A program made the translations under genes and the position numbers. The notes under the pieces are model-generated. The model had not been told where the DNA came from and did no database searches. It saw nothing but the letters and a program-made list of their open reading frames with translations. From an uncultured Clostridia bacterium (GTDB lineage: Bacteria > Bacillota > Clostridia > Christensenellales > Borkfalkiaceae), in assembly GCA_947630775.1 (NCBI GenBank), contig CANRIY010000002.1:1-35855 (forward strand): a DNA stretch of 35,855 nucleotides, in the 5' to 3' direction. Positions 9,774 to 12,709 of this stretch are shown one piece after another. Numbering within the stretch: the stretch's first letter is position 1; each line of letters begins with the position of its first letter.

Positions 9774-10968
9774 ATGACCCCGCATAGACGGATGAAACGA
9801 TCCCTTCGACTTCCATTCCATCGTCGGAATACGAAACGTTGCGCTCCGTGATGAGCGGGCGGACGGCGCCGTAGGAAGCCATCTTTTCATAGGGAATGAA
9901 GAGCTTTACGCGGATAAATTCATCTTTAAGGGCGTCGAAGATGTGTTTTTTGAGCTTTTCGAGCCCCAAACCCGCCTGTGCGGAGATGCAAACGACGTCA
10001 CGGGGGAAGCGGTCGGTGTCCTTCACAAGGTCGCATTTGTTCATGACGACGAGGTAGGGGGCCGAAAATCCGAGGTCTTGCAGCGTCGAAAGCGTTGTTT
10101 TCAGCTGCATCTCGTACTCACCCGCGGCATCGCAGACGATGAGGGCAAGATCGCAATTCAAGGCGCTCTCCAGCGTAGATTTGAAAGCTTTGATCAGGTG
10201 ATGGGGAAGGCTCTGCAAAAATCCGACGGTATCGACGAGCAAAAAGGGAACGCCTTCGATCTCGAATCCCCGCGCGGTTGGATCGAGCGTCGCAAAGAGC
10301 GCGTTTTTCACAAAGACATCCGCGCCCGTAAGGGCATTCAAGAGCGTGGATTTCCCGGTATTCGTATATCCCACGAGCGCGATCGTTTTGACGCGTTCTT
10401 TTTTTCTGCGCTCGACCTGCAGCGCACGCCTTTGTTCGGTCTCCTTGAGCTTTTCCTCGAGCGCACGGATGCGCTCACGGATATGCCGCCTGTCTGTCTC
10501 GAGTTTCGTTTCACCGGGGCCGCGCGTCCCGATCCCGCCTCCGAGACGGGAAAGCGCCTCGCCCTTGCCTTTGAGACGCGGATAAATGTATTTGAGCTGG
10601 GCGAGTTCCACTTGGATCTTTCCCTCGCTGCTCTGGGCGCGAAGAGCAAAAATGTCGAGGATGAGCGTCGTCCTGTCGATGACTTTGCGGTGGTCGAGCG
10701 CCTTCGAGATATTCAGAGTCTGGGAAGGGGAGAGCTCCCCGTTGAAGAGGACGGTGAGTTCCAGCCCTTCAAGCCGCTCTTTGAGCTCTAAAAGTTTTCC
10801 CTCCCCGATATAAGTCGCGGGATTGACTTCTCGGATATTCTGGTAGATCGTACCCGCATATTCCGCGCCCGCGCTCTCGATCAAAGAGAGGATCTCCGCA
10901 TGCAGAACATCCGAATTCGGCCCTTCGACGGGTTGGATCACATAGATGATCTCGGGTTTTTCCGTCAC
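9742..10968 (-). CDS. hflX: GTPase HflX (GTG start)
   Basis: RLGGGIGTRGPGETKLETDRRHIRERI, GYTNTGKSTLLNALTGADV, DTVGFLQSLPHHLIKAFKSTLE. Confidence 0.95.
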   Translation of the reverse strand: MTEKPEIIYVIQPVEGPNSDVLHAEILSLIESAGAEYAGTIYQNIREVNPATYIGEGKLLELKERLEGLELTVLFNGELSPSQTLNISKALDHRKVIDRTTLILDIFALRAQSSEGKIQVELAQLKYIYPRLKGKGEALSRLGGGIGTRGPGETKLETDRRHIRERIRALEEKLKETEQRRALQVERRKKERVKTIALVGYTNTGKSTLLNALTGADVFVKNALFATLDPTARGFEIEGVPFLLVDTVGFLQSLPHHLIKAFKSTLESALNCDLALIVCDAAGEYEMQLKTTLSTLQDLGFSAPYLVVMNKCDLVKDTDRFPRDVVCISAQAGLGLEKLKKHIFDALKDEFIRVKLFIPYEKMASYGAVRPLITERNVSYSDDGMEVEGIVSSVYAGSFRPFYRNRDL

Positions 10969-12029
10969 GTTTCGTCCTCCGTCCTGTGCAGTTTCACTTT
11001 CCCCGCAACGGAGCGGCGGTTGTCCTCCGTGATCGCGGCATAGTGCTTCCGCGTCGTATTCACGTCCTTGTGCCCCAAAACGTCGGCCACAATATAAATA
11101 TCGCCCGTTTCACGGTAGAGCGCCGTGCCGTAGGTGGAGCGCAACTTATGCGGCGTGATCTTTTTGAGCGGCGAGACGATCTTCGCATATTTTTTGACAA
11201 GATTTTCGACCGCACGGACGGTGATCCTGCGGTATTGCATCGATAAAAAGAGGGGTGAAGGGGTCTCCTTCGGGACGCGCGGATCTCCTTTTTTCTGTTC
11301 TAAATAGGCGAGAAGGGCATCCGCGACTTCATCCGAAAAGTATAAAATTGCATGACTGCCGCCCTTGCGGGTCACGACAAACGAGTTATTCGAAAAATCA
11401 AGATTCTCGTTATTGAGGCCGACAAGCTCGGAAATACGGATCCCTGTGCCCAAAAACAGAGTTAAAATCGCCGTATCACGCACCTTTGTGCGTTCATGGT
11501 AGCCGCTCGCATGGGGCGGAAGGCCCGATCCGAGCTCCGCAGTATCCAAAAGGTCGGAGATCTCATCGTTTTCAAGGCGGATGATCTCCTTTTCGTGTAG
11601 CTTGGGCGTGGCGACCTTGGAGGGGTTATTGACGCCGATGAGCCCCTTGTTGAAGAAAAACTTGAAGAGGGAACGGACGGTACAGAGCTTGCGCGCCTTG
11701 GCGCGTTCATCGCAGGAGAGATGTTTTTCCCCAAACGAATAGTGGGAGAGATAGGAGAGGAAGATCTCAATGTCGGTATCCGTGACCGTTTCAAGGTCCT
11801 CGAGATTGATCTCGCGGACCGCTTTCCCGTGAAATTTCTTTTTGGAGAGAAAATCAAAAAAGATCCTGAGGTCGTAGGCGTAGTTGAGACGGGTAAGCGT
11901 GCTCGTGCGCGGTTCGATGCCGCGGAAAAAATCCTCGCAAAAATCGGGAAGATCGGAGAGGAGTTCATCGATCTTGTCGAGATTCCTTAAATTGCGTTCC
12001 TGATAGTAATTCGCATTTTTGACTGCCAT
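10965..12029 (-). CDS. Tyrosine recombinase, XerS-like
   Basis: RDTAILTLFLGTGIRISELVGLNNENLDF, ITPHKLRSTYGTAL, VLGHKDVNTTRKHYA give the R-H-R-H-Y set; long N-terminal SAM-like domain like the single-recombinase XerS type. Overlaps the hflX start by 4 nt. Confidence 0.88.
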   Translation of the reverse strand: MAVKNANYYQERNLRNLDKIDELLSDLPDFCEDFFRGIEPRTSTLTRLNYAYDLRIFFDFLSKKKFHGKAVREINLEDLETVTDTDIEIFLSYLSHYSFGEKHLSCDERAKARKLCTVRSLFKFFFNKGLIGVNNPSKVATPKLHEKEIIRLENDEISDLLDTAELGSGLPPHASGYHERTKVRDTAILTLFLGTGIRISELVGLNNENLDFSNNSFVVTRKGGSHAILYFSDEVADALLAYLEQKKGDPRVPKETPSPLFLSMQYRRITVRAVENLVKKYAKIVSPLKKITPHKLRSTYGTALYRETGDIYIVADVLGHKDVNTTRKHYAAITEDNRRSVAGKVKLHRTEDET

Positions 12030-12064: not shown

Positions 12065-12135
12065 TTTTGCGAATAGTTAAATGGGGGAATTTTCGAAAAA
12101 TTTTCGGATGTAAAACCCGAAAGGGGAGTTTTTAC

Positions 12136-12164
12136 TTGACAAGCGTATCGTTTTTTGATAAAGT
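12136..12164 (+). promoter_or_regulatory. Promoter of a putative small structured RNA
   Basis: TTGACA (12136-12141), 17 nt, TAAAGT (12159-12164). Confidence 0.55.
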
Positions 12165-12165
12165 A

Positions 12166-12254
12166 AAGACGAGAACCGAGGTAGGTTGTTAGGTTCCCGT
12201 CTTGGTGAGCCGTTGCGTGGTTGTGAGCCTTTGTGCAACGGCTCCGTCTTTTTG
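12166..12254 (+). ncRNA. Putative small RNA with two strong hairpins
   Basis: Hairpin 1 12166-12177/12192-12203 (11 pairs, one mismatch, 14-nt loop); hairpin 2 12207-12216/12235-12244 (10 perfect pairs) followed by CGTCTTTTTG; own promoter; no ORF. Confidence 0.6.
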
Positions 12255-12266
12255 TCCGCTTTTCGC

Positions 12267-12377
12267 TTACGCTGTCATTTCAAGCAAGACTTTCACGATT
12301 TCCTCAGCCGTGAGACCCTGCTTTTGAAGTGACAAAATGAGCTTCCTGAGTTCAGATGTTGCCATTTCTTCGTCCAT
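12267..12377 (-). CDS. Unannotated 36-aa micro-ORF MDEEMATSELRKLILSLQKQGLTAEEIVKVLLEMTA
   Basis: Own promoter and SD-like AGGTAGGTAAAGG before the ATG; translated by hand; absent from the supplied ORF track (below its length cut-off). Confidence 0.6.
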   Translation of the reverse strand: MDEEMATSELRKLILSLQKQGLTAEEIVKVLLEMTA

Positions 12378-12403
12378 GTCCTTTACCTACCTTTAATAAT
12401 TTC

Positions 12404-12430
12404 AAGTGTAAGGCTCTGCGCCTTACACTT
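12404..12430 (-). promoter_or_regulatory. 5'-UTR hairpin of the micro-ORF transcript
   Basis: AAGTGTAAGGC / GCCTTACACTT, perfect 11-bp arms, 5-nt loop. Confidence 0.6.
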
Positions 12431-12439
12431 CTTAATTGA

Positions 12440-12468
12440 AGCATATCACAGCACGAGAGAAAAGTCAA
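12440..12468 (-). promoter_or_regulatory. Promoter of the 36-aa micro-ORF
   Basis: Minus strand TTGACT (12463-12468), 17 nt, TATGCT (12440-12445). Confidence 0.65.
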
Positions 12469-12554
12469 GTGCCGCGGCTGCGCGGTGGAGATTTTCGGAG
12501 CGTAGCGAAGAAAATACAACCGCTTGGCACTTTACTTTTCGGTAGGGCTGTGAT
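12445..12554. repeat. 110-bp imperfect palindrome
   Basis: Arms 12445-12473 and 12526-12554: ATCACAGC/GCTGTGAT 8/8, a 6-nt unpaired block, then GAAAAGTCAAGTGCC vs GAAAAGTAAAGTGCC 14/15; inner GCGGT/ACCGC and ATTTTC/GAAAAT pairs. Confidence 0.75.
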
Positions 12555-12644
12555 AATTGGTTCTCCGTTCATCTGCAAATAGTGCTTTATTTTATCTAAA
12601 TTTACCTAAATTATAAAATTCCTAAAAAATTTTTCTTAAAACTC

Positions 12645-12673
12645 TTGACATGCATAGGGGAATGTGATACACT
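12645..12673 (+). promoter_or_regulatory. Predicted sigma-A promoter with no assigned product
   Basis: TTGACA (12645-12650), 17 nt, TACACT (12668-12673), AT-rich upstream. Confidence 0.55.
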
Positions 12674-12677
12674 TAGA

Positions 12678-12709
12678 ACTATTCGCAAAATGCTTCTTTT
12701 ACGAATAGT
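12678..12709. other. Candidate tyrosine-recombinase (dif-like) site or operator
   Basis: ACTATTCGCAAAA - TGCTTC - TTTTACGAATAGT: 13-bp arms (12/13), 6-bp centre; 14-bp arm repeated exactly at 12065-12078. Confidence 0.45.

Follow-up and report, generated by a model that had tools for sequence, protein, structure and literature searches.

Covariation of a Shine-Dalgarno box with the loop of the last mRNA hairpin in a micro-gene and predicted antisense RNA module of Clostridia and their phages

Can the last hairpin of a short mRNA close the ribosome-binding site of that same mRNA, and what would a convergent small RNA do that carries the same eight letters as this site? The question is raised by a locus on contig CANRIY010000002.1 (GenBank assembly GCA_947630775.1) of an uncultured Clostridia bacterium, of which a stretch of 35,855 nucleotides, here called the window, was analyzed. 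The locus holds a micro-open reading frame (micro-ORF) on the minus strand and, on the plus strand, a predicted small RNA antisense to the 3' end of its mRNA. A perfect 8-nt inverted repeat with a spacing of 198 nt is formed by AGGTAGGT (12179-12186, plus strand) and ACCTACCT (12385-12392, plus strand). An earlier note on this DNA had described these 8-mers, read on the mRNA, as a Shine-Dalgarno (SD) box 7 nt before the ATG and its partner in a hairpin loop of the 3' untranslated region (UTR), and both the positions and the perfect match were confirmed. The mRNA 3' UTR consists of two hairpins, and the loop of the final one (hairpin 1, or H1' on the mRNA strand; 12166-12203) is TAACAACCTACCTC, 14 nt in length, which includes ACCTACCT. 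The shuffle probability of an 8-nt match was about 0.0045 for the window sequence alone, so that the estimate which had led the earlier note to call chance unlikely was of the right order.

Pairing of the ribosome-binding box with the terminal hairpin loop

Homologs were collected by nucleotide, RNA-model, protein hidden Markov model (HMM) and leader-pattern searches, which gave 23 intact two-gene modules from six genera of one Clostridia order and from two phage contigs. Four of these copies belong to the window's genus, 16 to four other genera of the same family, one to another family of the order and two to IMG/VR phage contigs; L127, L119, the first L161 copy and L145 were excluded from the counts as broken, recombined or incomplete. 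The upstream box, AGG-N-AGGT, was complementary to the loop of the last mRNA hairpin in 23/23 homologs, with 6-9 contiguous pairs, and the covariation of the two 8-mers across homologs, which the earlier note had named as a check, was clearly borne out. Pairing was counted position by position in the 22 copies which align without gaps. Positions 2-8 were paired in 154 of 154 cells, and the only non-Watson-Crick pairs were G-U (4 cells). These raw paired percentages are biased towards pairing because the alignment windows were centred on the box and an ACCT-like motif; the covariation and rank tests given below are independent of that choice.

The substitutions observed in the box were matched in the loop. 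Position 4 was T-A in 7 and C-G in 15 of the gap-free copies, at position 8 of L131 a C-G pair replaced T-A with both sides switched, and in L129 position 4 was deleted from both partners to leave the SD GGAGGC and the loop GCCTCC. The window and G123 (L025) form a natural pair that differs by T4C in the box together with A5G in the loop. Combining T-type leaders with C-type loops reduced the contiguous Watson-Crick pairs from 6.8 to 4.2, and the reverse combination of C-type leaders with T-type loops reduced them from 7.5 to 4.6. The covariation score of a 20-sequence alignment was 0.179 as compared with 0.113 ± 0.014 in shuffles, 0/500 of which reached it, while slid structures scored 0.060 or less. 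On the ORF tree there were at least five T/C switches at position 4 (2-3 of them on well-supported branches) and the loop was concordant every time. Across the whole ORF and 3' UTR, no partner of the box was more stable than the H1 loop in any of the 23 copies. Because the 8-mers covary across homologs, we consider it very likely that the 5'-3' SD/anti-SD pairing is real and under selection.

Two simpler readings of the match were weighed against these data. A chance of about 0.5% in the window alone is not negligible in a long sequence, but simple chance was rejected by the occurrence of the match in 23/23 homologs, and coincidence now seems barely credible. The ORF is flanked by two copies of one motif, as would be expected if the 8-mers were the DNA or RNA binding site of a regulator protein present in inverted copies, with the pairing incidental. 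However, both copies change in step, including the matched deletion, and the G-U wobbles are sensible only as RNA pairing on the mRNA strand; the homologs therefore reject the DNA-binding-site reading, and we regard a protein site of this kind as very improbable.

The pairing was also compared with that expected on the ribosome. For this the universal 16S anti-SD was used, because the 3' end of the host 16S rRNA was not found in this metagenome-assembled genome. The predicted duplex of the leader with this anti-SD, AAAGG-(N)-AGGT, had an energy of -9.6 kcal/mol with the fourth base bulged, as compared with -11.4 kcal/mol (window) and -13.4 kcal/mol (C type) for the predicted duplex of the leader with its own loop, in which all eight pairs are formed. 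Since base 4 is bulged on the 16S anti-SD and paired in its own loop, this position would be free for the ribosome and fixed by the loop, and the covarying base is thus the one left unread by the ribosome. In a rough count, 1/601 long ORFs in related loci had AGGNAGG but no canonical SD close to an early methionine, versus 22/23 here. We infer that the inserted base makes the SD and the anti-SD prefer each other over ordinary SDs.

The predicted small RNA and the micro-protein

Table 1. Features of the two-transcript locus in the window (ends of the transcripts are predicted).
Feature	Position	Strand	Remarks
mRNA promoter, TTGACT-17-TATGCT	12440-12468	-	9/12 match, TG ahead of the -10 element; conserved in L022/L023
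Leader hairpin, AAGTGTAAGGC-GCAGA-GCCTTACACTT	12404-12430	-	Perfect 11-bp inverted repeat; conserved in G008 and G020
SD box, AGGTAGGT	12385-12392	-	Long-distance pairing partner 1; 7 nt between box and ATG; covaries with the H1 loop in 22 homologs, matched deletion in L129
Micro-ORF, MDEEMATSELRKLILSLQKQGLTAEEIVKVLLEMTA*	12267-12377 (12270-12377 translated)	-	36 amino acids; predicted helical hairpin
Hairpin H1', final mRNA hairpin, probable terminator	12166-12203	-	Followed by T-rich tail 12165-12155
Anti-SD, ACCTACCT, in H1' loop	12179-12186	-	Pairing partner 2; plus-strand bases are the SD-like AGGTAGGT of the small RNA
Antisense small RNA promoter, TTGACA-17-TAAAGT	12136-12164	+	10/12 match; abuts hairpin H1
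Predicted small RNA, about 84 nt	12171-12254	+	Complementary to the mRNA 3' end; ends derived from promoter position and terminator
Hairpin H2 with T-run, small-RNA terminator	12207-12254	+	10-bp perfect stem, tail CGTCTTTTTG

A sigma-70-like site was present on the opposite strand just beyond H1 in 23/23 copies (mean 10.0/12, as compared with 6.9 in shuffles) and had a spacer of 17 nt in 21 of them. No intact ORF without this antisense promoter-like site was found among the 23 homologs, and the RNA predicted from it lies opposite the mRNA and is complementary to it over an overlap of 84 nt. The earlier note had placed the SD-like 8-mer in the loop of a plus-strand RNA. The sequence is as described, but the start predicted for this RNA in the window (about 12171) is already within the 5' arm of hairpin 1; only the mRNA strand thus has the hairpin in full, and the plus-strand RNA would form it in part. 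In most homologs the antisense promoter is 11-15 nt further out with the start outside H1, and the small RNA would therefore contain the whole hairpin.

The two hairpins differ in the kind of mismatch that they tolerate. Read on the mRNA strand, the non-Watson-Crick cells of the homologs' H1 stems were G-U in 16 cases versus A-C in 2, and the interior mismatches of H2 were C-A or A-C in 7 cases and G-U in none; these seven become G-U pairs on the small-RNA strand. T-rich tails follow H1' in most homologs. The pattern is as if H1 were the mRNA terminator and H2 the small-RNA terminator, selected on opposite strands, and is taken as supporting evidence only, with the caveat that the sequences are related and some H2 registers are uncertain. 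No Rfam family matched at the gathering threshold at the window locus or in nine homologous loci, and a permissive scan at the locus gave sub-threshold noise only. A separate 30-nt inverted repeat (83%; window 12444-12473 and 12526-12555) mirrors the mRNA promoter region in the opposite orientation and is visible in the G020 locus too.

The micro-ORF is under purifying selection, with a ratio of nonsynonymous to synonymous substitution rates (dN/dS) of 0.12 against L025 and of 0.04-0.23 across measurable pairs, and for this reason we regard it as a real gene. Members of the protein family have 34-47 amino acids, are acidic to neutral (net charge 0 to -4) and lack a membrane segment (grand average of hydropathy -0.88 to 0.32; best 17-residue window 0.99 or below in all 23). 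The AlphaFold2 model is a soluble-looking helical hairpin with helices at residues 3-19 and 24-35 (predicted local distance difference test score 91). Neither Pfam, PHROGs nor NCBIfam gave a convincing match to the micro-protein, including any that would relate it to TxpA, BsrG or YonT, toxins with which it was not compared directly, and a Foldseek search of the predicted model against the PDB returned no match. A Pex14_N match in one phage copy (25.7 bits, cut-off 23.2) was judged a chance likeness of a short helical hairpin, the other three proteins being unsupportive. Because the micro-protein is not hydrophobic and has no convincing family match, we do not classify it among the type I toxins. 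Weak HMM matches in L135 and L146 (genus g39) were not counted as homologs as they are longer proteins, of about 100 amino acids, with at least two tandem units of the helix-hairpin motif (..LI..L..KGW[ST].EEI..L...T); they suggest that the micro-protein is a single unit of a repeat family.

A proposed competition for one loop and its alternatives

We consider it probable that the locus is a two-transcript module in which a 5'-3' pairing hides the SD and an antisense RNA competes for the same loop, likely as a repressor. The earlier note had read the full-length mRNA as translationally silent and the small RNA as competing with or relieving its pairing, a reading supported in part, namely for the pairing itself and for the conserved antisense promoter. 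The anti-SD ACCTACCT in the H1' loop would pair with the SD AGGTAGGT, which lies upstream at a distance of about 200 nt, the finished mRNA would close on itself, and translation initiation would be blocked. The small RNA would start convergently past H1', antisense to the mRNA 3' end, and carry the same 8-mer as the SD. Because it carries the SD sequence, the SD and the small RNA cannot pair together and would compete for one loop, and since both bind this loop three exclusive states are expected: closed with the SD on the loop, open, or bound by the small RNA. The closed mRNA would most likely be inert and shielded from the small RNA, while opened mRNA with both loop and SD free would be translatable and accessible to the small RNA. 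Pairing of the small RNA over about 84 nt would then lead to degradation of the mRNA, presumably by cleavage of the duplex, and the protein would remain under a double lock until the small RNA is exhausted or the mRNA is made in a burst, for example after prophage induction.

The nearest likeness is with txpA/RatA, bsrG/SR4, bsrE/SR5 and yonT/SR6 of Bacillus subtilis, in which mRNA and antisense RNA overlap at their 3' ends by 100-140 bp, the antisense RNA promotes mRNA decay, and several of the systems lie in prophage regions (PMC6562991). Pairing of 4-5 bp within the mRNA masks the SD of txpA, bsrE and bsrG, and in bsrG the mask grows from 4 to 8 bp upon SR4 binding (PMC6562991). Like these, the present module combines a short mRNA with a convergent antisense RNA (overlap about 84 nt) and a putatively masked SD; unlike these, the mask would be the loop of the last hairpin with 7-8 bp, the antisense RNA carries the SD sequence, and the protein lacks the character of a hydrophobic membrane peptide and has no convincing known-family match.

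The antisense RNAs of aapA/IsoA (Helicobacter pylori) and hok/Sok pair close to the 5' end of the mRNA after its processing, whereas the small RNA described here would pair with the anti-SD-bearing 3' end. In the full-length mRNAs of both systems a 5'-3' long-distance interaction hides the SD (PMC6733600). A 3'-UTR motif of the icaR mRNA of Staphylococcus aureus likewise pairs with its own SD, which, in the account consulted, blocks the initiation complex and makes an RNase III substrate (PMC3868564). According to the descriptions consulted, 5'-3' masking of the SD has been demonstrated experimentally for aapA and icaR (PMC6733600, PMC3868564), and the micro-gene resembles aapA, hok and icaR in having an SD complementary to a 3'-UTR motif, here kept by covariation. 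In contrast to the present module, icaR is an ordinary regulator gene with no overlapping antisense RNA in the mechanism as described there, and is not a mobile-element family with covarying partners (PMC3868564). The Fst/par system of pAD1 is alike in that toxin mRNA and small RNA converge, that terminator loops are the contact site and that the SD is masked; its two RNAs share one bidirectional terminator, and through direct repeats its small RNA is complementary to the initiation region (PMC7472228). Here the small RNA is instead identical to the SD and each RNA seems to own a terminator hairpin. Type I systems of Clostridioides difficile are similar in host class, prophage location, convergent overlapping antisense RNA and small protein, with no SD/anti-SD pairing in the description consulted (PMC6563280). 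By analogy, the module would work like bsrG/SR4 with an aapA-type lock, and is not a proven toxin-antitoxin system.

Several points weigh against the proposed repressor module. Both transcripts and their ends are predicted from sequence, and the sequence evidence gives no direction for the effect of the small RNA. The small RNA of the window would probably start within hairpin 1 and, folded by itself, is predicted to have AGGTAGG partly buried rather than in an open loop. Position 1, the eighth pair, is missing from 9/22 homologs, the supported independent switches (2-3) are too few for a tree-based sign test, and the host 16S end is missing from the comparison with the ribosome. Decayed copies were counted in its favour: G032 and G044 have lost the 5' part of the ORF and G130 all of it, and the small-RNA promoter and both hairpins are kept in all three. 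In G008 a second copy also lacks most of hairpin 1.

The same 5'-3' lock could be opened by the small RNA rather than reinforced if, on binding the H1' loop (and on triggering cleavage of the 3' UTR past the stop codon), it freed the SD and turned translation on. As the small RNA has the SD sequence itself, binding to the loop must release the SD, and as the antisense overlap lies entirely downstream of the stop codon, cleavage would spare the SD and ORF. Set against this are the known 3'-overlapping antisense RNAs RatA, SR4, SR5 and SR6, which promote degradation of the sense mRNA (PMC6562991), and the ORF-less copies, in which the small RNA is retained as expected of an antitoxin-like part. 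By analogy with these B. subtilis systems we favour a repressor over an activator, which we think unlikely. A related thought, equally speculative and in our judgement improbable, is a private ribosome-binding code: the N of AGG-N-AGGT would be bulged on the ribosome and paired in the loop, so that SD, loop and SD-mimicking small RNA would be largely insulated from ordinary SDs, and in the strongest form the small RNA would switch the mRNA on by out-competing the SD. Compatible with the repressor module, and concerned with protein function, is the possibility of a true type I toxin-antitoxin pair whose micro-protein kills or arrests the host. The earlier note had seen this likeness, and its RNA side holds: a convergent 3'-overlapping antisense RNA, a putatively masked SD, phage copies, copies standing alone on chromosomes, and others in which the ORF alone was lost. 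The protein does not follow suit, being acidic to neutral, with no hydrophobic 17-mer above 1.0 and a predicted soluble-looking helical hairpin, and its place as first gene of an apparent early operon of a temperate phage fits a regulator too. A toxin is a real option, though we lean away from it. We do not call the module a toxin-antitoxin system because, although the RNA layout is that of such a pair, the usual hydrophobic protein is absent and toxicity is hypothetical.

Genomic setting and distribution

Rightward from the genes of a CI-like repressor and a second helix-turn-helix (HTH) regulator on phage contig L118, the micro-ORF comes first and is followed by genes for an excisionase-like HTH protein and for Gp157/Gam-like, ERF, HNH and SSB proteins. 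It looks like the head of the early operon of a temperate phage. A candidate defence gene between the two repressors (L118 5936-6898, minus strand) encodes a restriction-endonuclease-like protein (DUF3644 / EC042_2821). The L161 promoter region has ATCAAC/GTTGAT repeats of operator-like appearance. Second, broken copies on phage contigs were seen at L161 11110-11300 and L119 5000-5180, where the leader and the first 10-12 codons continue into an HTH repressor gene in antisense orientation, which looks like the result of a recombination within the micro-ORF that exchanged the repressor region. In other genomes the micro-ORF stands ahead of a J-domain-like gene and close to transposase-like ORFs.

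Spread is patchy within the window's genus, where the RNA part was found in 6/103 genomes and the ORF in 4. A class-level sample gave no short-ORF relative and matched only pieces of long ORFs. Narrow-alignment peptide-pattern scans of genome contigs and viral contigs had no match, tblastn against plasmids and phages gave no convincing match, and a looser DNA pattern in viral contigs hit mostly unrelated coding sequence. The module is absent between the same flanks in L032 (CANPYD010000006.1), the window's closest relative by the neighbouring recombinase; compared with window 12089-12666, the flanks are near-identical and form an almost clean empty site.

A tyrosine recombinase gene that is conserved in dozens of related genomes has a conserved dif-like palindrome, ACTATTCG[CT]AAAA-N6-TTTT[AG]CGAATAGT, roughly 100-600 bp upstream, and a half site in its promoter. 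In the window these sequences were seen at 12678-12709 and 12066-12079, with the recombinase at 10965-12029 (minus strand), and they recur in loci L032-L111. The recombinase and the adjoining dif-like site are possibly a single-recombinase Xer/dif system. Elsewhere (e.g. L046, L057, L063, L078, L079, L081, L084, L089 and L094) the interval between them holds a small ORF, Xre-type HTH-like by eye, and because the window's module sits there too, the interval looks like a variable insertion spot.

Taken for the family as a whole, the locus is a well-supported natural case in which the final hairpin of an mRNA would lock its own ribosome-binding site while an antisense RNA is built from the same eight letters. 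The covariation, including the switches at the position unread by the ribosome, supplies natural compensatory variants for direct reporter tests of the lock, key and competitor logic. It also points to a family of 34-47 amino acid proteins which stands first in an apparent early operon of temperate phages of gut Clostridia.
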